A DNA stretch of 36,638 nucleotides from Flavihumibacter soli. Its GTDB lineage: Bacteria > Bacteroidota > Bacteroidia > Sphingobacteriales > Sphingobacteriaceae. The first letter of the stretch is position 1; each line of letters begins with the position of its first letter. The DNA is taken from contig NZ_JAAFZB010000085.1 of assembly GCF_010692725.1 (NCBI RefSeq), positions 1 to 36,638 on the forward strand, written 5' to 3'. The position numbers were made by a program, and so were the translations under genes. The notes under the pieces are model-generated. The model saw only the letters and a program-made list of their open reading frames with translations. It was not told where the DNA came from and searched no databases. Shown here one piece after another: positions 12,917 to 30,893 of this stretch.

Positions 12917-15352
12917 GTGAGATATTTTCTTATCGTCGCATTCACTTGCCTGACGAATTGCCTTCTTGCGCAAAGCAGTACCGTCGTAAATGGTCATGTA
13001 CAAGACGAGAAATCGCTGCCTTTAGGTAATGTAACCGTCCGCCTGCTCAACACCAGCTTTTCCACTCAAACCGACAAGGATGGTTTCTTCAGCCTCAATA
13101 TTTCAGCATCCAAAGCTGTTATCAGCTTTAGCAGGATAGGTTATAAGACTGTATTCCTGGAAATAGGCATTGTTGCCGGGCAAATTAATAGGCAGGACGT
13201 TATCATGTTCCCGGAATCCAGAACACTTGAAGAAGTGCGGGTGAGAGGCGACAAGGATAATAAAACCAATATTACCGGTATTGATGCGGCCCTGCTACAG
13301 TCGCTTCCCTCCGCATCCGGAAATTTCGAGTCGATATTGAAAACCCTGCCGGGAGTCTCCTCAAACAACGAGCTCAGTTCACAATATTCAGTTCGGGGCG
13401 GAAATTTTGACGAAAACCTGGTTTACGTAAACGATGTTGAAATATACCGGCCGCTCCTGGTCAGAAACGGCCAGCAGGAGGGCTTAAGTTTTATCAACCC
13501 GGAACTGGCCAGCCATGTTAAATTCTCTGCCGGCGGCTTCGAAGCCCGTTACGGCGATAAATTATCATCGGTTCTTGACGTTAAATATCTCAGGGCTGAT
13601 AGCACCGTTATCATTGCCAGCATAGGTTTGTTAGGAAACTCTCTTACCCTTAAGTTACCAGGAAAACGCAATTACTTTCTGGGTGGGATACGTCTTAAAG
13701 ATAACCGTTCCATTCTTAACACCCAGGATATCAAGGGCGCTTATCAACCAGAATTTTCTGATTATCAAGCTGTTTACGGCGGTGATCTAAATAAAAAACT
13801 TAGCTATTCATTATCCGGAAACTATAATTTCAGCAGCTTTCTCCTGGAGCCGGAAAGCCGGGAGACCAAGTTTGGAACTTTCAATGAAGTGCTCAGATTG
13901 CAGGTAGATTACCAGGGAAAGGAAGCCGACAGATATGAAACGCTAATGGGGGCTTTCAGTCTGGTCTATAAGGCTTCATCAAGTCTTAATTTCAAATGGA
14001 TAAACTCAGCTTTTCGTGTAGCGGAGCAAGAGCGATTTGATATTGAAGGGCACTACATCTTCGATGAGATAGAAACAGATTTTACAAATCCTGATTTTGG
14101 AAAAGTGCGGGCGAACCGGGGGATAGGGAGCACGCTCGATTATGCCAGAAACAAGCTGAAGGCCGGTATCTACAGTAGCGAGATCAGGGGATATAAACAA
14201 ATCAGAAATTCATTTTTTGAATCCGGAATTCGCTTTCAGTTTGAAGACCTGCATGACAGGTTGAATGAATACCAGGTGATCGACTCAGCCGGTTATATTC
14301 TGCCGGTGAATGATGGCCCTCTTCAACTCAGCAATGTCGTCAACGCTACAAACGATGTCAGCACGCAACATCTCAGTGGTTTCGTTCAGAATTCAATGCA
14401 GTTGTCACCCAGGTTATCGTTAACTGCAGGCCTGCGTGCTAATTACAGTTCTTATACCGGGGAGTTTCTGTTAAGTCCCCGGTTTAATCTCGCATATCAG
14501 CCTAAAACGCAGAATGACCTTCTATTAAGACTTTCTGCAGGGGCCTATGATCAGCAACCATTTTATCGTGAGTTCAGGCGGTTTGACGGAACGTTAAATC
14601 CCGATGTAAGAGCACAACGCTCATGGCATTTCTTAACGGGTGCGGATTACAATTTTAACGGTCTCGGAACAACCCTGAGATTAAGTTCTGAATTATATTA
14701 CAAATATCTCAGTCAACTCACTCCTTACAAGATAGAGAACCTGCGTATCCGGTACTTTGCGGACCAGCAATCCAAAGGGTATGCGGCAGGGGCCGATTTT
14801 AGCCTTAGCGGTCACTTCGTAAAAGACCTTGAATCTTCGTTCCGGTTATCGTTTATGAAAACGGCAGAGGACATTACAGACGATTCTTATTCTGAAGAAG
14901 ATGAAGAGGGCAATCCTGTCACAATTGAACCTTCCTACCTCAAACGCCCTTCAGATCAAAGAATCAATTTTTCAATGTTCTTCCAGGACCGCCTGCTTAA
15001 CGATCCTTCCTACAAGGTTCATCTCACGATGCTTTATGGCGCCGCGATGCCCGTTGGGCCACCGGGGACTGAAAGGTACCGCGATGTATTCAAAATCCCG
15101 GCCTATAAAAGAGTGGACATCGGCTTTTCTAAAGACTTCATGGACAGGAGAAATAAGATCAGCTCCGGCTTCCTCAGCCAGTACTTCGAATCGTTGATCG
15201 CATATGCTGAAATATTCAATCTTCTGGACATCAACAACACTGTTTCTTACATCTGGATCAAGGATGTAAATAACAATCAGTATGCAGTTCCCAATTATTT
15301 AACATCCAGACAATTCAATTTTCGTATTATTGCGAAAATCAAAAGCAAATGA
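12917..15352 (+). CDS. TonB-dependent outer-membrane receptor with carboxypeptidase-regulatory N-domain
   Basis: 811 residues from a GTG start. The signal peptide is clear: hydrophobic segment to about residue 17, cleavage after L-L-A. A CarboxypepD_reg-like beta domain follows (about 20-105), then a TonB plug (about 115-225, with L-P-G-V-S-S-x-x-E-x-S-x-x-Y-S-V-R-G-G-N-F-D-E), and a barrel to the C-terminus with aromatic-rich strands. Such receptors bring ligands across the outer membrane using TonB/ExbB energy. The ligand is unknown. No SusD-like partner is next to it, which argues against a classical polysaccharide utilisation locus. serC follows with its own -7 box. An 8-base inverted repeat (12875-12882 with 12893-12900) lies just upstream. 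Confidence 0.9.
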   Translation: MRYFLIVAFTCLTNCLLAQSSTVVNGHVQDEKSLPLGNVTVRLLNTSFSTQTDKDGFFSLNISASKAVISFSRIGYKTVFLEIGIVAGQINRQDVIMFPESRTLEEVRVRGDKDNKTNITGIDAALLQSLPSASGNFESILKTLPGVSSNNELSSQYSVRGGNFDENLVYVNDVEIYRPLLVRNGQQEGLSFINPELASHVKFSAGGFEARYGDKLSSVLDVKYLRADSTVIIASIGLLGNSLTLKLPGKRNYFLGGIRLKDNRSILNTQDIKGAYQPEFSDYQAVYGGDLNKKLSYSLSGNYNFSSFLLEPESRETKFGTFNEVLRLQVDYQGKEADRYETLMGAFSLVYKASSSLNFKWINSAFRVAEQERFDIEGHYIFDEIETDFTNPDFGKVRANRGIGSTLDYARNKLKAGIYSSEIRGYKQIRNSFFESGIRFQFEDLHDRLNEYQVIDSAGYILPVNDGPLQLSNVVNATNDVSTQHLSGFVQNSMQLSPRLSLTAGLRANYSSYTGEFLLSPRFNLAYQPKTQNDLLLRLSAGAYDQQPFYREFRRFDGTLNPDVRAQRSWHFLTGADYNFNGLGTTLRLSSELYYKYLSQLTPYKIENLRIRYFADQQSKGYAAGADFSLSGHFVKDLESSFRLSFMKTAEDITDDSYSEEDEEGNPVTIEPSYLKRPSDQRINFSMFFQDRLLNDPSYKVHLTMLYGAAMPVGPPGTERYRDVFKIPAYKRVDIGFSKDFMDRRNKISSGFLSQYFESLIAYAEIFNLLDINNTVSYIWIKDVNNNQYAVPNYLTSRQFNFRIIAKIKSK

Positions 15353-15407
15353 TTGCTCACCACGCCTGAGATTTGCAAACACTTTTATCGGGTAAATAAT
15401 ATTCTTC

Positions 15408-15415
15408 TAATTTTG
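15408..15415 (+). promoter_or_regulatory. Bacteroidota -7 promoter element for serC
   Basis: TAATTTTG matches TAnnTTTG, 18 bases before the serC ATG at 15434. No convincing -33 TTTG lies at the expected spacing. It implies that serC-serA-DUF1015 can be transcribed separately from the upstream receptor gene. Confidence 0.45.
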
Positions 15416-15433
15416 ACCAATAAAAACAAGATC

Positions 15434-16504
15434 ATGACGTATAACTTTGGTGCAGGTCCCTGCATTTTGCCAAACGAAGTCTTTAAGCAAGCTTCACAAG
15501 CTGTTCTCGAATTTAACCCTACAGGCTTATCAATTTTAGAAATCTCGCATCGTACCCCGGAGTTCGAATCCGTTGTTGATGAAACTGTTCGACTTGTTAA
15601 GGAATTATTGAACGTCCCTGCAGGATACTCAGTGCTGTTCTTACAGGGCGGTGCAAGTCTGCAATTCGCTATGGTTCCTATGAACCTGCTGGGAGATAAT
15701 CAAACTGCATCCTATCTCGACACTGGTGTCTGGGCAAACAAAGCCATTAAGGAAGCCAAGATCATTGGAAACGTAAATGTTGTCGCTTCCTCAAAAAGTG
15801 AAAATTATACGTTCATCCCTAAAGACTTTCAGATACCAGAAGACTCAGCATACTTTCATTACACCTCGAACAATACGATCTATGGTACCGAGTTGATGGA
15901 AACCCCAAAAACAAACGTACCCCTGGTGTGCGATATGTCATCGGATATCTTTAGTCGTACGATCAACGTAGCTGATTTTGATCTTATTTACGCAGGCGCC
16001 CAAAAGAATATGGGGCCGGCCGGTGTAACCCTTGTCATAGTAAAAGATGAGATCCTGGGTAAAATAGACAGGAAATTACCATCCATGCTTGACTACAAGA
16101 TTCATATTGATGGCGGCTCGATGTACAATACGCCACCGGTGTTCTCGATATATGTATCCATGCTTAACCTTAGATGGCTAAAGTCAAAAGGCGGTGTATC
16201 GGAAATTGAAAAGGAGAATATTTCAAAAGCAGAAGCTTTGTACCGGGAGATTGATCGCAATCCACTTTTTAAGGGCACATGTCGTACGGAAGACCGTTCA
16301 CGAATGAATGTGTGTTTTGTAATGGAGAACCCGGAGCTTGAAAAGCCTTTCCTTAAATTTACTGAAGAACGCAATATCGTTGGTTTAAAAGGTCACCGTA
16401 GTGTTGGTGGTTTCAGGGCTTCGCTCTATAATGCCTTGCCGATAACCAGTGTTCACGTGCTGATTGACGCTATGCAAGACTTCGCAGAGAAACACAAAAA
16501 ATAG
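15434..16504 (+). CDS. serC: Phosphoserine aminotransferase
   Basis: 356 residues from the ATG at 15434; the frame is open upstream to 15353 but that part overlaps the promoter. A PLP enzyme that converts 3-phosphohydroxypyruvate and glutamate to phosphoserine and 2-oxoglutarate; it also acts in vitamin B6 synthesis in some bacteria. The N-terminus N-F-G-A-G-P (4-9), H-R (39-40), Q-G-G-A-S (71-75) and the Schiff-base lysine at 191 within [11 protein letters not shown] are all as expected, as is [13 protein letters not shown] near the end. It lies 59 bases ahead of serA; the pair makes the first two steps of serine synthesis. Confidence 0.97.
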
Positions 16505-16563
16505 TAACAAAAGTAGTATCCTGAAATCCTGACCTTTTGGTCTGTTATTAATCTATAAAATCT

Positions 16564-17517
16564 ATGATCCGTATACTAGCCAATGATGGCATTGACCCGA
16601 TAGGAAAAAAATTACTTGAAGAAGCAGGTTTTTTCGTAGACACTAATCATATACCGCAGGCCGAGCTTGCTGAAGGACTAAAAACCTACGATGCAATCAC
16701 CGTAAGAAGTGCGACTAAAGTTCGAAAAGTGCTTATTGATGCATGCCCGAATCTGCGTTTAATTGGTAGAGGTGGTGTAGGTATGGACAATATCGATGTA
16801 GATTATGCACTCTCCAAAAGTATTGCAGTTGTTAATACACCTGCGTCGTCATCGCTGTCAGTCGGAGAACTGGTATTTGCCCATTTATTTAACGGAGTCA
16901 GGTTTTTATATAATTCAAACCGCAGAATGCCGGTAGAAGGCGCAGAAAAGTTCAACGATCTCAAAAAAGCGTATGCTAAAGGTGTGGAGCTAAGAGGTAA
17001 AAAGATAGGCATTATCGGCTTTGGAAGAATCGGCCGTGAGACAGCAAAGATAGCTCTGGGCCTGGGCATGGAAGTCTTAGCTTTTGATCTTTTTGATGTA
17101 CCCTCAGAACTGGAGCTTCACCTTGCCGGAGGCGTTCGCGTATCATGCCCTGTTCAATCAGTTGACCTGGATCAGCTGATCCGGAATTCTGATTTTATTA
17201 GTTTGCATGTTCCCTTCGCAGAGAAACCTATCCTTGGAAAGGAAGAGTTTGCGAAAATGAAAGCTGGTGTTGGTGTCGTCAATTGCTCTCGCGGGGGAAC
17301 CATAGATGAAGAGGCGCTATTATCTGCATTAAATTCAGGCAAGGTTTCCTTTGCGGGTCTTGATGTATTCGATAACGAACCGACTCCAAGAGCTGAAATT
17401 CTTTCTCATCCTAAAATATCCCTAACACCACATATCGGAGCTTCTACCAACGAGGCGCAGGAGCGTATCGGAACAGAGCTGGCTACCCTGATCATTGATT
17501 TTTTCAAAACCAGATAA
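16564..17517 (+). CDS. serA: D-3-phosphoglycerate dehydrogenase, short form
   Basis: 317 residues. It oxidises 3-phosphoglycerate to 3-phosphohydroxypyruvate with NAD+. The D-2-hydroxyacid dehydrogenase fold is intact: G-R-G-G-V-G-M-D-N-I-D (68-78), the nucleotide motif G-F-G-R-I-G (152-157), catalytic Arg243 (C-S-R-G-G), Glu272 (F-D-N-E-P) and His290 (H-I-G-A-S-T). It lacks the C-terminal ACT domain of E. coli SerA, so serine feedback through ACT is not expected. The sequence alone does not exclude another hydroxyacid substrate, but the position directly after serC makes phosphoglycerate the likely one. DUF1015 follows after 18 bases. Confidence 0.92.
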   Translation: MIRILANDGIDPIGKKLLEEAGFFVDTNHIPQAELAEGLKTYDAITVRSATKVRKVLIDACPNLRLIGRGGVGMDNIDVDYALSKSIAVVNTPASSSLSVGELVFAHLFNGVRFLYNSNRRMPVEGAEKFNDLKKAYAKGVELRGKKIGIIGFGRIGRETAKIALGLGMEVLAFDLFDVPSELELHLAGGVRVSCPVQSVDLDQLIRNSDFISLHVPFAEKPILGKEEFAKMKAGVGVVNCSRGGTIDEEALLSALNSGKVSFAGLDVFDNEPTPRAEILSHPKISLTPHIGASTNEAQERIGTELATLIIDFFKTR

Positions 17518-17535
17518 TAACATCAGCGAAGTAAC

Positions 17536-18771
17536 GTGCCGAGAATAAAGCCATTTAAGGGGATACTTCCGAATTCCGCCTATGTTAACCAGATCGTACT
17601 CGAGGTAGAGAATCTGAATCTGGAAACAGCTAAGGTCATCCGGGAAGAAAATCCTTATTCCTATGTGAATATGCTGGTCCCTAAAGTTGATAATAAGTTC
17701 CTGAGGGGATCGAAACGGGAGCTCGCGTATAAGAAGATCAACGAAAACTTTGAAGATTTCCTGGAGAAGGAAATTTTGATACGTGATACCGTTCCTTCAC
17801 ACTACATCTACCAGATAAGGCATAGAGGAATAGTTCAGACTGGCATATGGACCTGTACCTGCATCGACGACTACCTGAACAATACGGTTAAAAAGCATGA
17901 ACTAACCCGCGCTGATCGCGAGAATGCATTGATAGATTATTTACAGCAAACGGGTGTTGATGCAAACCCGGTGTTAATAACTTATACTCAGACTGAGTCA
18001 ATCAGGAAGGTTATAGAAAGAAAGCTAAGCGAAGCGCCTGATCTTGACTTTGCAACACCTGATGCCGGGCACCGTTTATGGAAAGTCAGCGCAGAAGCTG
18101 AAGTTATGGAGCTTAATAGGGCATTCGCTGACCTGCCAGTCTCTTATATAGCCGATGGCCACCACAGGGCAGCGGCCGCCTCCCTTTTAGGGATCGAACG
18201 CCGAAAGCTGAACCTGAAGCATACCGGTAAGGAGGAATATAATTTTTTCACATCCGTTTACATGGCCACAGACCAGCTGCAAATCCTTGAATTTAACCGC
18301 TTAATTAAGGATACTGGTCATTATTTCAGGGAGCAATTCCTGTCGCAACTGACTGAAAATTTTGAGGTACATGTCTCAGATTCGGAAATTAAGCCGGCCC
18401 AACTGCATGAATTTGGTATGTATCTGGATCACACATGGTATCGGCTTTCCGCATTGCCGCATACTTACATGAAAGCAAATCCGGTTGCCGATCTGGATGT
18501 TACCATACTTCAGGACTACTTACTTGAGCCTGTTCTTCGGATCAATGATCCGCGAACAGATCCGAGGATTGGATTCATGGGCGGCGTGACTCCAATAGAC
18601 GAGTTAGTAAGAATAGTTGACTCTGGTGAATATGCAGTTGCATTCACTCTGTTCCCGACGTCCATCGATCAACTGATTCGTGTAGCCGATGCTGGCGAAG
18701 TAATGCCACCGAAGTCAACCTGGTTTGAACCAAAATTCCAGGCTGGCCTGGTCATCCATAAGATCAGTTAG
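17536..18771 (+). CDS. DUF1015 family protein, with ParB-like DGHHR motif
   Basis: 411 residues from a GTG start, matching DUF1015 (PF06245) length. Recognisable signatures: N-terminal P-F-K-G-I, Y-x-Y-Q-I-R-H-R-G (about 90-98), K-K-H-E-L-T-R-A-D-R-E (119-129), I-A-D-G-H-H-R-A-A-A (205-214) and M-G-G-V-T-P-I-D-E-L near the C-terminus. The function of the family is not established. The D-G-H-H-R motif is similar to that of ParB/sulfiredoxin-fold proteins, which include free serine kinases (SerK, SbnI). Together with tight linkage to serC-serA (18-base gap), this suggests a step acting on serine or phosphoserine. That is an inference. No serB phosphatase is in the window. It ends 19 bases before a convergent gene. 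Confidence 0.9.
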   Translation: MPRIKPFKGILPNSAYVNQIVLEVENLNLETAKVIREENPYSYVNMLVPKVDNKFLRGSKRELAYKKINENFEDFLEKEILIRDTVPSHYIYQIRHRGIVQTGIWTCTCIDDYLNNTVKKHELTRADRENALIDYLQQTGVDANPVLITYTQTESIRKVIERKLSEAPDLDFATPDAGHRLWKVSAEAEVMELNRAFADLPVSYIADGHHRAAAASLLGIERRKLNLKHTGKEEYNFFTSVYMATDQLQILEFNRLIKDTGHYFREQFLSQLTENFEVHVSDSEIKPAQLHEFGMYLDHTWYRLSALPHTYMKANPVADLDVTILQDYLLEPVLRINDPRTDPRIGFMGGVTPIDELVRIVDSGEYAVAFTLFPTSIDQLIRVADAGEVMPPKSTWFEPKFQAGLVIHKIS

Positions 18772-18790
18772 GGTCGCTGTAAAAATAGAC

Positions 18791-20182
18791 TTAGTCGAGC
18801 ATATATGTATAACCCCTGGATGCAATCTCTGTGTGAAATCCTTCCAGCTGAAGACTCTCCTGCAGGCTTTGCATAGAGGAAAGTTCACCGTGTACCAGGA
18901 AAACCTTTTTTAATTTTTCCGTATCCTGCTGTTTAACAAAGCTCATCAGATCATTGTGATCCCCATGACCGCTGAAGTGATCAGATTGTTTTATGGTAGC
19001 ATATACCGAGAGTTCACGATGACGGATCGTTACGATAGGGTCGCCGCGTAATAAGCGGTAACCTAAGGTGTTCTTTGCACAATAGCCTATGAAGAGGATC
19101 GTGCAATAATAATTCTGAATATTATAAAAGAGATGATCCTGGATCCGGCCGCCCTCTAACATTCCTGCGGATGAGATAATAATGCAGGGCTCAAAATAAT
19201 TGCTGATAGCTTTACTGGCTTCCATATCTTCGACGTACTCCAGGTTGTCAAATTCAAATTCATCGCCCTGCTGACGATAAAATTCCTGGGCCTCTTCATT
19301 AAGTAAATGATGATGTCTCCGGAAGATCTGTGTGGCATGATTTGCCATCGGACTGTCGACAAACACCTTGACTTTAGGCAGTAATCCCTTACTGAAGATC
19401 CGGTTAAGCGAGTAAACCAGCGCCTGCGTTCTTCCAACGCTGAATGCGGGAATGATCAGTCTTCCTGGTGTTTTTATACATGCCTCATTCACCGTCTGGA
19501 CAAGCATTTCTTCAATACTATTCGAGTCTTTATGCACCCGGCCACCATAGGTTGACTCACAAACCAGGTAATCAACCTCTGGCAGTTGTGACGGATCATT
19601 TAAAACCGGGTAGTTCTTTCTACCGATATCACCGCTGAAGGCAATAGATCTTTCCTGCCCGTTTTTATTTATAGTGAGTACGGCAGCAGCGGCACCAAGC
19701 AAATGTCCAACCGGGACAAACGTGAGCGAGGCATCTCCATTCAATCTGAAAGTTTTATTAAAACCGATCGTAACGAAACGGTCTACGGTTTCCATCACAT
19801 GCTTATGGAGGTATAGAGGCCGCGGACCGGAAGAAAATTCACGCTTACCCCGGCGCTTTTTACGTTGTTTACTTAAAAATATGTTAACAGAATCAAAAAG
19901 CAGGACCTCGGTTAGATCTGCAGTAGGAGGTGTACACAGGATCTGGCCCTCAAAGCCCAATCTTACCAGTGTTGGCAAATTTCCCGAATGGTCAATATGC
20001 GCATGAGTCAATATAACAACGTCTATCTCGTTCGGCGCGAATGGAAACTGTTCATTTTCTTCCAGCCAGGTATCCTTCTCGTAATCTAAGCCACAATCAA
20101 TAAGTATCTTGTAGTTATCAAGTTCCAACAGGTGCATACTGCCTGTTACTTGTTGTGCAGCGCCCCAAACAGTGAGTTTCAT
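18791..20182 (-). CDS. Metallo-beta-lactamase/beta-CASP ribonuclease-like protein
   Basis: 463 residues, the normal size for bacterial MBL-beta-CASP proteins related to CPSF73/Ysh1. The metal-site motifs are complete: H-A-H-I-D-H (60, 62, 64, 65 being ligands), His160 in V-G-H-L, Asp185 in F-S-G-D-I-G, and the C-terminal histidines in H-S/F-S-G-H-G-D-H and L-V-H-G-E. The beta-CASP insert carries E-S-T-Y-G-G-R (209-215), D-S-P-M-A and I-I-S-S-A-G-M-L-E-G-G-R. Enzymes of this type are endo- or 5'-exoribonucleases in the cytoplasm; this one is closer to the YSH1-type group than to RNase J. It is convergent with DUF1015 and 48 bases after the ABC transporter stop codon. Confidence 0.92.
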   Translation of the reverse strand: MKLTVWGAAQQVTGSMHLLELDNYKILIDCGLDYEKDTWLEENEQFPFAPNEIDVVILTHAHIDHSGNLPTLVRLGFEGQILCTPPTADLTEVLLFDSVNIFLSKQRKKRRGKREFSSGPRPLYLHKHVMETVDRFVTIGFNKTFRLNGDASLTFVPVGHLLGAAAAVLTINKNGQERSIAFSGDIGRKNYPVLNDPSQLPEVDYLVCESTYGGRVHKDSNSIEEMLVQTVNEACIKTPGRLIIPAFSVGRTQALVYSLNRIFSKGLLPKVKVFVDSPMANHATQIFRRHHHLLNEEAQEFYRQQGDEFEFDNLEYVEDMEASKAISNYFEPCIIISSAGMLEGGRIQDHLFYNIQNYYCTILFIGYCAKNTLGYRLLRGDPIVTIRHRELSVYATIKQSDHFSGHGDHNDLMSFVKQQDTEKLKKVFLVHGELSSMQSLQESLQLEGFHTEIASRGYTYMLD

Positions 20183-29312: not shown

Positions 29313-29771
29313 TTACTTAAAAAGTCGCTGATCGAACACAAACGGTTCTATTTTTAGAATACTTATTTTCTGAAACCCAGAATGAGCGGGATTGATCAGG
29401 TAGTTATATTCTCCCGGAACAACCGCAGAAGGCACCTTGAGCACCAGGGCTTCTCCCTGGCGAATAAACTCATCACCTAGGAGTTGGGTAGATTCTGAAT
29501 AAGGGTAAGTTCTCCAATCCAAGGCTAACTCTGATAACCTGATCTCCTTAATCAAAACCTCATCTGGAATAATGATTGAAGACATGCAATAGTCAACAGG
29601 TACAATACCCAGGGGGATGTGAACGGCAATTTCTGTAATACTAAGGGCTCTCGATTCAGAGGTATATAACAGCGCCCGACCTTTACTATTCCACCGTCCG
29701 CCATACATCTCGGCTCCTTTTCCAGTTAGGTCCTCACTAAAATATGATTTGCTCAGGCGATAAACTATCAT
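29313..29771 (-). CDS. RES-domain toxin (NAD+-depleting type)
   Basis: 152 residues forming one RES domain. The conserved Arg-Glu-Ser residues are visible: Arg26 in Y-G-G-R-W-N, Glu47 in S-I-T-E-I-A-V-H, and Ser115 in V-P-S-A-V-V-P. N-Y-L-I-N-P-x-H (123-130) is also typical. Characterised members (MbcT and relatives) degrade NAD+ and stop growth unless neutralised by the Xre/MbcA antitoxin. The start codon overlaps the antitoxin stop by four bases (ATGA), the normal order with the antitoxin first. All key residues are kept, so the toxin is predicted intact. Confidence 0.93.
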   Translation of the reverse strand: MIVYRLSKSYFSEDLTGKGAEMYGGRWNSKGRALLYTSESRALSITEIAVHIPLGIVPVDYCMSSIIIPDEVLIKEIRLSELALDWRTYPYSESTQLLGDEFIRQGEALVLKVPSAVVPGEYNYLINPAHSGFQKISILKIEPFVFDQRLFK

Positions 29772-30199
29772 GCGAGAACACCATACTCAATGCGGCCTAA
29801 CTCATCTTTCAGAAGATGTATACCAAAAGTGCTATCCAGCAACTCTTTGGGCTTAACATTTCCAAGGGCGATATTATTAGCATCTAGCCAGGCATCGAAT
29901 TTCCCGCTATCGCCGAATACTTCAACACCTTTCCTGTAAAGCAGGGTTATCTCGAGGATTTTTTCTGAGTGAATAGGATCAAAGGTTTTCTCTTCCTTCT
30001 TATATCGCTGCATCGTACGTTCAGAGAGGTGCAAAAACGAAGACCATTCCGTGATGTTAAAGGGGCTTTTCCTGACGATACTAGTAAAAGACGAAAAACT
30101 AATTCCTCTCCTTACCGTAGCAATGAGGGCGGAGATATTCTTATTTCCTAGCGACTGGTAGGAAATCGCAGCATCGTTCAATATCGATTTATCTTCCAT
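29768..30199 (-). CDS. Xre/MbcA/ParS-type antitoxin (DUF2384)
   Basis: 143 residues. An Xre-like HTH region (about 50-70, with L-H-L-S-E-R-T-M-Q-R-Y) is followed by the DUF2384/MbcA-like C-terminal domain with E-V-F-G-D-x-x-K-F-x-x-W-L, the segment that blocks the active site of RES toxins. It would bind its own promoter and the toxin. It is immediately upstream of the RES gene with overlapping codons, so the two form one toxin-antitoxin operon. A palindrome and spaced repeats just before the start (30201-30258) are plausible operator sites. Confidence 0.92.
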   Translation of the reverse strand: MEDKSILNDAAISYQSLGNKNISALIATVRRGISFSSFTSIVRKSPFNITEWSSFLHLSERTMQRYKKEEKTFDPIHSEKILEITLLYRKGVEVFGDSGKFDAWLDANNIALGNVKPKELLDSTFGIHLLKDELGRIEYGVLA

Positions 30200-30263: not shown

Positions 30264-30893
30264 TTAAACAGCAGTATAAAATTCTTCTTTTTCTGTAGTA
30301 TGAATCCTCAGCACCCCGGACAAAACCAGATTAACCAGTATCCTGTAGGAGCGTCGTCGCGATAAATTTAACATATCACTAAACTCCCTGGCTGTGATTC
30401 GCTCATTGACATTAAGGTACTCCAGCAAAGCTTTCTCTTTCGACGTATATTCAAGTAAAACACCTTCTGATTTATTTTCGCGCTTCAGGACATCAACTAC
30501 AACCTTACTTGCAAGCACGCTTTTATCTTTAACCCGGACATAAACCCACCATTTCTTATCTTCACCCAGTGCATAATGAGGCTTCATGTCACTCTCTTCA
30601 ATATCGACAACAAGAACGATCTTTTCGTCAACGTAGACTTCCTCAAATTTTGGCTCAAGAGCAGGTTTACAGTAGAATCCTGCCGCTTTATTGATCATAA
30701 ACTTTTCTTCATCTTCAGATTTCACTCCAACGATGCGGCCATCATCAGCAACCCCGATTAAAAGCTTTCCACCCTTATTATTGGCGTAGGATACCATGGT
30801 TTTTGCGATCTTCTCGCAGCTGGTGATCGTGTTTTTAAAATCCAGGGTAGTACCTTCGCCCTCAAGAATTAGTTTCCTTATGTTTATACCCAT
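30264..30893 (-). CDS. AlbA_2 (Schlafen-like) domain protein with winged-helix C-terminus
   Basis: 209 residues. The N-terminal AlbA_2 domain (about 5-135) has E-G-E-G-T-T-L-D-F-K (11-20), A-K-T-M-V-S-Y-A-N-N-K-G-G-K-L-L-I-G-V-A-D-D-G (30-52) and G-V near 56, the typical pattern of Schlafen AlbA_2 proteins. The C-terminal 60 residues look like a winged helix (L-L-E-Y-L, A-R-E-F, R-R-R-S-Y-R-I-L-V-N-L-V). Some members regulate transcription or act in RNA cleavage; this one lacks an obvious nuclease extension. It starts ten bases after the DUF4442 gene and ends 64 bases before the antitoxin start. Its role in the toxin module is unproven. Confidence 0.85.
   Translation of the reverse strand: MGINIRKLILEGEGTTLDFKNTITSCEKIAKTMVSYANNKGGKLLIGVADDGRIVGVKSEDEEKFMINKAAGFYCKPALEPKFEEVYVDEKIVLVVDIEESDMKPHYALGEDKKWWVYVRVKDKSVLASKVVVDVLKRENKSEGVLLEYTSKEKALLEYLNVNERITAREFSDMLNLSRRRSYRILVNLVLSGVLRIHTTEKEEFYTAV

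Follow-up and report, generated by a model that had tools for sequence, protein, structure and literature searches.

A DUF1015 subfamily with a predicted SerK/SbnI-like fold, encoded beside serA and serC, as a probable phosphoserine/serine enzyme and candidate substitute for SerB

Directly behind serC and serA in the window, i.e., the whole 36,638-nucleotide stretch of DNA that was analysed, lies a gene for a DUF1015 protein of the subfamily here termed A. We consider it rather probable that subfamily A comprises phosphoserine/serine enzymes of the SerK/SbnI fold, encoded beside SerA and SerC, which substitute for SerB where the protein is intact and SerB is missing, with the copy in the window itself being redundant, specialised or decaying. 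What was observed is the fold match, the conservation of motifs, the gene neighbourhood, the distribution of SerB and the serine-codon T-boxes, and to these we add, as what we infer, the substrate, the direction of the reaction and the roles of individual residues.

The operon in the window consists of serC (15353..16504, + strand), a 3-phosphoserine aminotransferase matching TIGR01364 at 485 bits and over the cut-off, serA (16564..17517, + strand), a short D-3-phosphoglycerate dehydrogenase of 317 residues (PF00389/PF02826), and the DUF1015 gene (17536..18771, + strand; 411 residues, GTG start). The coordinates agree with the preliminary description, which had noted the three as co-directional and in this order with an 18-base gap between the last two. 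The likelier start of serC is an in-frame ATG at 15434, with alignments beginning at residue 28–30, and serA reaches 289.5 bits against the PGDH profile TIGR01327, below its 454-bit cut-off, covering the first 302 of 525 profile positions. The DUF1015 protein matches PF06245 at E 4.8e-78 (262.8 bits against a cut-off of 25.8; profile positions 1–325), has no NCBIfam match at 0.001 and is the one match to the family in its genome; among the matches listed, its closest relatives come from Daejeonella (58% identical), where the serC-serA-DUF1015 order recurs, and Pedobacter (48%). A Pfam scan of 28 distinct open reading frames, out of 42 of at least 90 residues, found no serB-like protein in the window, as had been stated before. 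Within the window no riboswitch or T-box was detected at gathering score, and promoter and terminator scans of 15100–18900 yielded about as much as shuffled sequence. Elsewhere in the window, a beta-CASP metallo-beta-lactamase protein (18791-20182, - strand), with the type VII CRISPR Cas14 family as its best NCBIfam match (397.9 of a cut-off of 800), is probably an ordinary RNase-like relative, and a RES-domain gene (29313-30199, - strand) forms a toxin-antitoxin-like pair with an Xre/MbcA/ParS antitoxin gene, adjoined by a Schlafen AlbA_2 gene at 30264-30893.

AlphaFold2 models were built for the window protein (pLDDT 92.6) and for the DUF1015 protein of Bacteroides ihuae (pLDDT 94.3), from different lead sequences with overlapping alignments. 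In Foldseek searches of the PDB, the matches of both models at E <=0.001 were confined to six entries of SerK and three of SbnI, with probability 1.00 and E values of 2.8e-8 to 3.5e-5, the remaining listed matches having probabilities of <=0.15; no ParB or sulfiredoxin entry was returned at E <=0.001 for either model. The SerK matches have TM-scores by target length of 0.49–0.59, as computed from predicted models. The kinship to SerK and SbnI that the preliminary description had left to structure comparison is borne out at the level of these models. The HAD fold and motifs of SerB are absent, with PF06245 being the only Pfam match below 0.001 and the predicted fold being SerK-like; likewise, no ParB-type helix-turn-helix or C-terminal dimerisation domain of Pfam was matched at 0.001, and a sub-threshold HTH_8 match spans 18 residues at E 0.075. 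Sequence comparison was less telling than the fold search, which was decisive: the single window protein retrieved nothing useful from the PDB, and a profile of 52 sequences gave weak hmmsearch matches to SerK (E 0.18–0.87) that ranked below an unrelated match at 0.013, with the matched segments sitting at DGHHR and, collinearly, at a C-terminal PK[ST]T. An hhalign profile-profile comparison, set up from 182 DUF1015 sequences (filtered to 102) and two of SerK, aligned DUF1015 positions 341–396 with SerK 170–224, a C-terminal stretch only, at a score of 55.1 (Prob 93.4), against a maximum of 22.4 among 100 column-shuffled SerKs and 9.9 for reversed SerK; DGHHR featured there only in a weak second alignment.

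Three SerK motifs, H-E, DGHHR and PK[ST]T, recur collinearly in DUF1015. The I-A-D-G-H-H-R-A-A-A earlier reported at residues 205–214 is indeed present, and the stretch Y204-I-A-D-G-H-H-R211 (codons 18145..18168, + strand) is by profile match the equivalent of I-V-D69-G-H-H-R73 in SerK; A206-R211 are invariant in an alignment of 21 sequences (A1), and Y204 with A206-R211 in a second alignment (A2). We take this motif to be like box II of ParB. Upstream, K120-H121-E122-L-T-R (17893..17910, + strand) is the proposed equivalent of SerK P28-H29-E30, which holds the catalytic glutamate and for which E30A and E30Q mutants are among the PDB entries; H121, E122 and T124 are invariant in A1, and K120 and H121-E122 in A2. 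Downstream, M390-P-P-K-S-T-W-F-E-P-K400 (18703..18735, + strand) is the proposed equivalent of SerK S-P-K-T-T-R-H, with M390, P391, K393, T395, P399 and K400 invariant in both alignments. Glu122 may be the counterpart of SerK Glu30, a pairing made by motif order and secondary structure rather than by superposed coordinates: the model and alignments of DUF1015 give the order strand, H-E, helix, strand, strand-DGHHR-helix, which we take to be also that of SerK from its sequence and fold. One further motif, PYDV, is present in most relatives and lost in the window protein, where residues 23–26 read EVEN in alignment A1 (codons 17602..17613, + strand).

On this scheme, phosphoserine would bind in the SerK-like pocket, with DGHHR and PPKST contacting the phosphate and nucleotide side and Glu122 acting as general acid/base, and the phosphate would pass to water (hydrolysis) or a small acceptor, releasing serine in what would be the last step of its synthesis. 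SerK phosphorylates serine, and reversal against ADP or AMP would be uphill, so that a better guess is hydrolysis, or else transfer to an acceptor of low energy. Subfamily A would in that case be a non-HAD phosphoserine phosphatase or phosphotransferase on a serine-kinase fold, filling in for SerB where many Bacteroidota and Clostridia lack it, from within aminotransferase-serA-DUF1015 operons, in some Clostridia under serine T-boxes; for this more specific reading we see an even chance.

The family divides by motif into two subfamilies: in A, the residue behind DGHHR is mainly A, S, C or T and the C-terminal motif mostly MPPKST, and B has mainly DGHHRYET and MPQKSTFFYPK. A sample of 148 Bacteroidota genomes held 131 with DUF1015 and 17 without; by regular expressions and a PYDV split picked after inspection of the sequences, with genome G099 assigned by hand, the carriers comprise 61 with subfamily A retaining PYDV (intact A), 18 with A lacking it and 52 with B. 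Thus, a PYDV-type motif is kept in 61/79 subfamily-A genomes. Across the 131 proteins, the H-E.T motif, in a looser pattern, is kept in 61/61 intact-A, 13/18 PYDV-less A and 49/52 B members, and Px-K-[ST]-T in 60/61, 16/18 and 50/52, respectively. This conservation fits the expectation for an enzyme and bears against a non-catalytic, regulatory role, in which the pocket would sense phosphoserine, serine or a nucleotide and control SerA and SerC in the manner of ParB-fold switches. A pure regulator would also leave the missing step of the pathway unfilled. The nucleotides bound by ParB-fold proteins do vary, and some of these proteins act as switches, with a "DU1015" fusion having been picked for binding tests according to the accessible part of PMC12704722, yet we judge the regulatory reading very unlikely.

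Gene neighbourhood separates the subfamilies sharply. One or both of serA and serC lie on the same strand within <=3 kb in 62/79 subfamily-A genomes as against 0/52 with subfamily B; by class, such co-directional neighbours accompany 56/61 intact-A, 6/18 PYDV-less A and 0/52 B genes. Beyond this sample, serA and/or serC lie within <=3 kb at 52/80 named loci, these being the best 80 of 585 confirmed, and at 33 of 40 clostridial loci, drawn from the 44 Clostridia-class genomes with DUF1015 above 400 bits. As some loci stop at contig ends, these counts are lower bounds, and the adjacency that the preliminary description had wished to see surveyed is well attested for subfamily A. By record titles, carriers among the best 80 of 585 include Bacteroides, Prevotella, Anaerotignum and Lachnospiraceae, with metagenome-assembled genomes adding Cloacimonadota, Gemmatimonadetes, Acidobacteria, Desulfuromonadaceae and Alphaproteobacteria. 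The available part of a published account, in a non-functional context, likewise has serC, an NAD(P)-binding protein gene and DUF1015 side by side in two species of Porphyromonas. Four subfamily-B loci that were examined adjoin scpA, tsaE, an era-like gene or a biotin carboxylase gene, and the substrate of subfamily B may differ from that of A; the SerK-like residues are mostly kept in subfamily B, whose loci include L057:7285-8559 and L061:5926-7203.

The distribution of SerB in the Bacteroidota sample follows the same divide. Counting phosphoserine phosphatases of the HAD kind, as distinct from, e.g., the histidine-phosphatase type, either canonical SerB (TIGR00338 over its cut-off) or a fused type, homologous to the HAD part of a protein from the window's own genome described below, occurs in 0/61 intact-A genomes, which span 14 families: three of these have weak matches (73–120 bits) and 58 have none at 1e-12. 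The corresponding counts are 10/18 for PYDV-less A, 41/52 for B and 5/17 for genomes lacking DUF1015, and if the PYDV split is ignored, strong SerB accompanies subfamily A in 10/79. Laxer searches found no match over the cut-off in 32 genomes (best 37.7 bits) and nothing at 0.001 in three genomes of family f21. Since 59 of the 61 intact-A genomes have serC_1 at 1e-60 and 60 have a serA-like gene at 1e-25, their serine pathway looks complete except for its last step. Among the 85 genomes with serC, strong SerB is found in 0/59 with intact A versus 16/26 others, a comparison whose Fisher value ignores shared ancestry and which uses hand-compiled presence lists. Ten serC genomes, eight of them with PYDV-less A and two without DUF1015, have neither intact A nor a SerB match at 1e-12, and thus further enzymes for the last step must exist. 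In two genomes, Prevotella disiens (L248, G180; subfamily A) and G052 (subfamily B), the SerB match is split into two pieces, with internal stops in the former, through either assembly error or gene decay.

The mutual exclusion that had been anticipated holds for intact A in this sample and loosens outside it. In 50 named subfamily-A genomes, hand-picked from the 80, SerB is over the cut-off in 9, weaker in 7 and without a match at 1e-10 in 34, the last including all 17 of the 17 non-Bacteroidota genomes. The nine co-holders, which include B. ihuae, B. oleiciplenus and P. disiens with its broken SerB, all keep PYDV in the DUF1015 protein, so that an intact subfamily-A protein does not preclude SerB. 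The carriers of weaker matches include Flexithrix dorotheae (a 632-residue frame, with PYDV intact in its DUF1015), Daejeonella and Pedobacter, the HADs here being of the size of the fused or HAD-ACT proteins. Within the Clostridia-class sample, SerB over the cut-off is found in 0/196 genomes, and hence its absence from clostridial carriers means little; weak SerB-like HADs, compared by hand, are commoner with subfamily A (13/44) than without it (14/152). These clostridial HADs score 49–98 bits and are mostly about 200–250 residues long, with genomes G378, G315 and G198 among their carriers. A general anticorrelation of subfamily A with SerB outside the Bacteroidota sample was accordingly dropped, as the clostridial counts show none.

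Evidence on the direction of the reaction comes from T-boxes. An Rfam scan covered 51 Clostridia-type loci, all of them DUF1015 loci, in sets of 11 and 40 with possible duplicates between the sets and with five of the 40 ending early at contig ends. In five of the 51, T-box leaders at gathering score precede the class-V aminotransferase-serA-DUF1015 operon on the coding strand (L319 and L315, each with two in tandem, L310, L308 and, in Clostridium sp. cel8, L214); a sixth match, in L231, lies on the opposite strand. The specifier after the loop GAA (CUA in two) is UCC (Ser) in 7/7 elements, and the T-box sequence is UGGC in six of the seven, which would presumably suit G73 of tRNA-Ser, and UGGU in one. 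A T-box activates its genes in response to uncharged tRNA; DUF1015 should therefore be co-induced with serA at serine shortage, which favours serine production. No SerB match was found in the five genomes, searched at 1e-10 for L214 and at 1e-12 for the other four. Glycine riboswitches were absent from the 51 loci at gathering score, and when 10 of the loci were scanned again at E 0.1, no further riboswitch or T-box appeared. COG4198 is, we presume, the same family as DUF1015. Glycine riboswitches have been reported upstream of COG4198 genes and serC genes, as seen in part of PMC2211319, and serC and serA are under glycine-riboswitch control in a single Clostridium species in the excerpted text of PMC3766115; at COG4198 such a riboswitch could mean repression by glycine or its use, and could fit a catabolic role. 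As for T-boxes, passages of PMC8002221 report that a Paenibacillus polymyxa serA T-box with specifier AGC is induced by serine starvation and cite a UCC specifier predicted for Clostridium acetobutylicum and C. tetani.

Against the reading of subfamily A as a producer of serine stands that of a forward free serine kinase using ATP, ADP or PPi, with SerC and SerA running in reverse to channel carbon of serine or glycine toward 3-phosphoglycerate, or with phosphoserine passing to cysteine. All fold matches at E <=0.001 are free serine kinases, the coexistence with SerB in Bacteroides would be accounted for, and the riboswitches just mentioned and the location of Desulfurococcales serK near serA-like and aminotransferase genes (accessible portion of PMC5120207) also speak for it. 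The serine-codon T-boxes at five operons, which imply induction under serine scarcity, argue against it, and a catabolic enzyme would not readily explain why SerB is missing from each of the 61 sampled Bacteroidota with intact A; we hold the kinase reading to be unlikely. In the cysteine variant the obstacle is that the window's own genome has a cysE-type match at 1e-20 (169 bits, under the cut-off of 210.65), as do 31/61 intact-A genomes, so that a cysteine role is not general and was dropped as such.

The window's own genome, which we take to be Sphingobacteriaceae-like from the Daejeonella and Pedobacter matches, is where the substitution for SerB is least secure. The preliminary description had noted that no serB lay in the window and left the rest of the genome to be searched; with TIGR00338 that search found a 446-residue protein on contig C95 (L002:1450-2790) at 65.4 bits, below the cut-off, carrying DFDST, SGG and GDGHSD, which we take to be HAD phosphatase motifs, and a C-terminal ACT domain. 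Its homologues in families f4, f8 and f9 have 627–646 residues and also match phosphoglycerate dehydrogenase, and going by sequence its dehydrogenase middle looks shrunken. This HAD phosphatase-ACT protein is probably the genome's SerB, and the idea that the window's genome lacks SerB was discarded. It would probably perform the last step there, with the DUF1015 copy redundant, specialised or being lost, and a SerB-replacing role of the window's own copy is doubtful. A stronger version, in which the DUF1015 protein of this lineage is a decaying relic after takeover by the HAD phosphatase-ACT protein, draws on the loss of PYDV from both this copy and that of G099 and on the five sampled genomes of the same family, the window's own included, three of which retain the HAD-ACT protein and have no DUF1015. 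Yet the window copy retains KHE, DGHHR, MPPKSTWFEPK and an intact 411-residue frame beside serA, and the Daejeonella relative retains the operon order; decay is thus conceivable but somewhat less than evenly probable, and, being compatible with the family-level explanation preferred here, its chances are not to be added to those of the latter.

For the family, the interconversion of serine and phosphoserine that had been proposed from the sequence gains from the predicted fold, the ordered SerK motifs and the neighbourhood with serA and serC, and its in-place-of-SerB part fares unevenly: favoured by the relatives, with no strong SerB in the intact-A Bacteroidota and with serine T-boxes on five operons, and disfavoured by the window's own genome with its HAD-ACT protein and lost PYDV. 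We regard subfamily A as probably a stand-in for SerB in many lineages. Gaps of this kind are on record: 450/2856 human gut reference genomes have SerA and SerC and none of four SerB types (PMC9026213, as seen in part), SerB is unresolved in some prototrophs in GapMind (available part of PMC7311316), and a SerB gap is also left in the gap analysis of PMC5764234, to judge from its accessible portion. In the open-licence literature we found neither a functional study of DUF1015, COG4198 or PF06245 nor a proposal linking DUF1015 to phosphoserine, and the accessible portions of PMC11535334 and PMC10102598 held nothing bearing on DUF1015 and serine. If the present reading is right, a SerK-fold family beside serA and serC would change which gut bacteria are predicted to be serine auxotrophs, and enzymes of the free-serine-kinase type would reach beyond a few archaea and the staphylococci into a large family of bacterial proteins; with hydrolysis or reversal, a kinase fold would have been put to phosphatase use.

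Among known systems, SerB is the proposed counterpart in function, as a HAD enzyme of unrelated fold and motifs that catalyses the same reaction and step as proposed for subfamily A. The ParB-CTPase fold (ParB, Noc, sulfiredoxin) compares through the box-II-like DGHHR, with SerK itself matching ParB chains by sequence at E 6e-5 to 1e-4. A 2025 survey of that fold lists "DU1015" among the fusions selected for nucleotide-binding tests, with no result for it in the part of PMC12704722 available, and thus part of the fold relationship may already be known. SbnI (5UJD, 5UJE, 6NR6), the second group of fold matches (probability 1.00, 10–13% identity), is a free serine kinase from the pathway of the siderophore staphyloferrin B. 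Closest is SerK of Thermococcus kodakarensis and Pyrococcus furiosus (5X0B and related entries, 1VK1), the best fold match of both models, which shares with DUF1015 the order [K/P]-H-E, DGHHR, PK[ST]T at 13–15% identity in the fold alignments. According to part of PMC5120207, the archaeal enzyme accepts ADP but not ATP or PPi, and clear homologues are said to be absent from bacteria. In contrast to this ADP-dependent free serine kinase of 242 residues, the window protein has 411, and DUF1015 is bacterial and carries insertions and, at its N-terminus, some 100 additional residues that in most relatives include PYDV.
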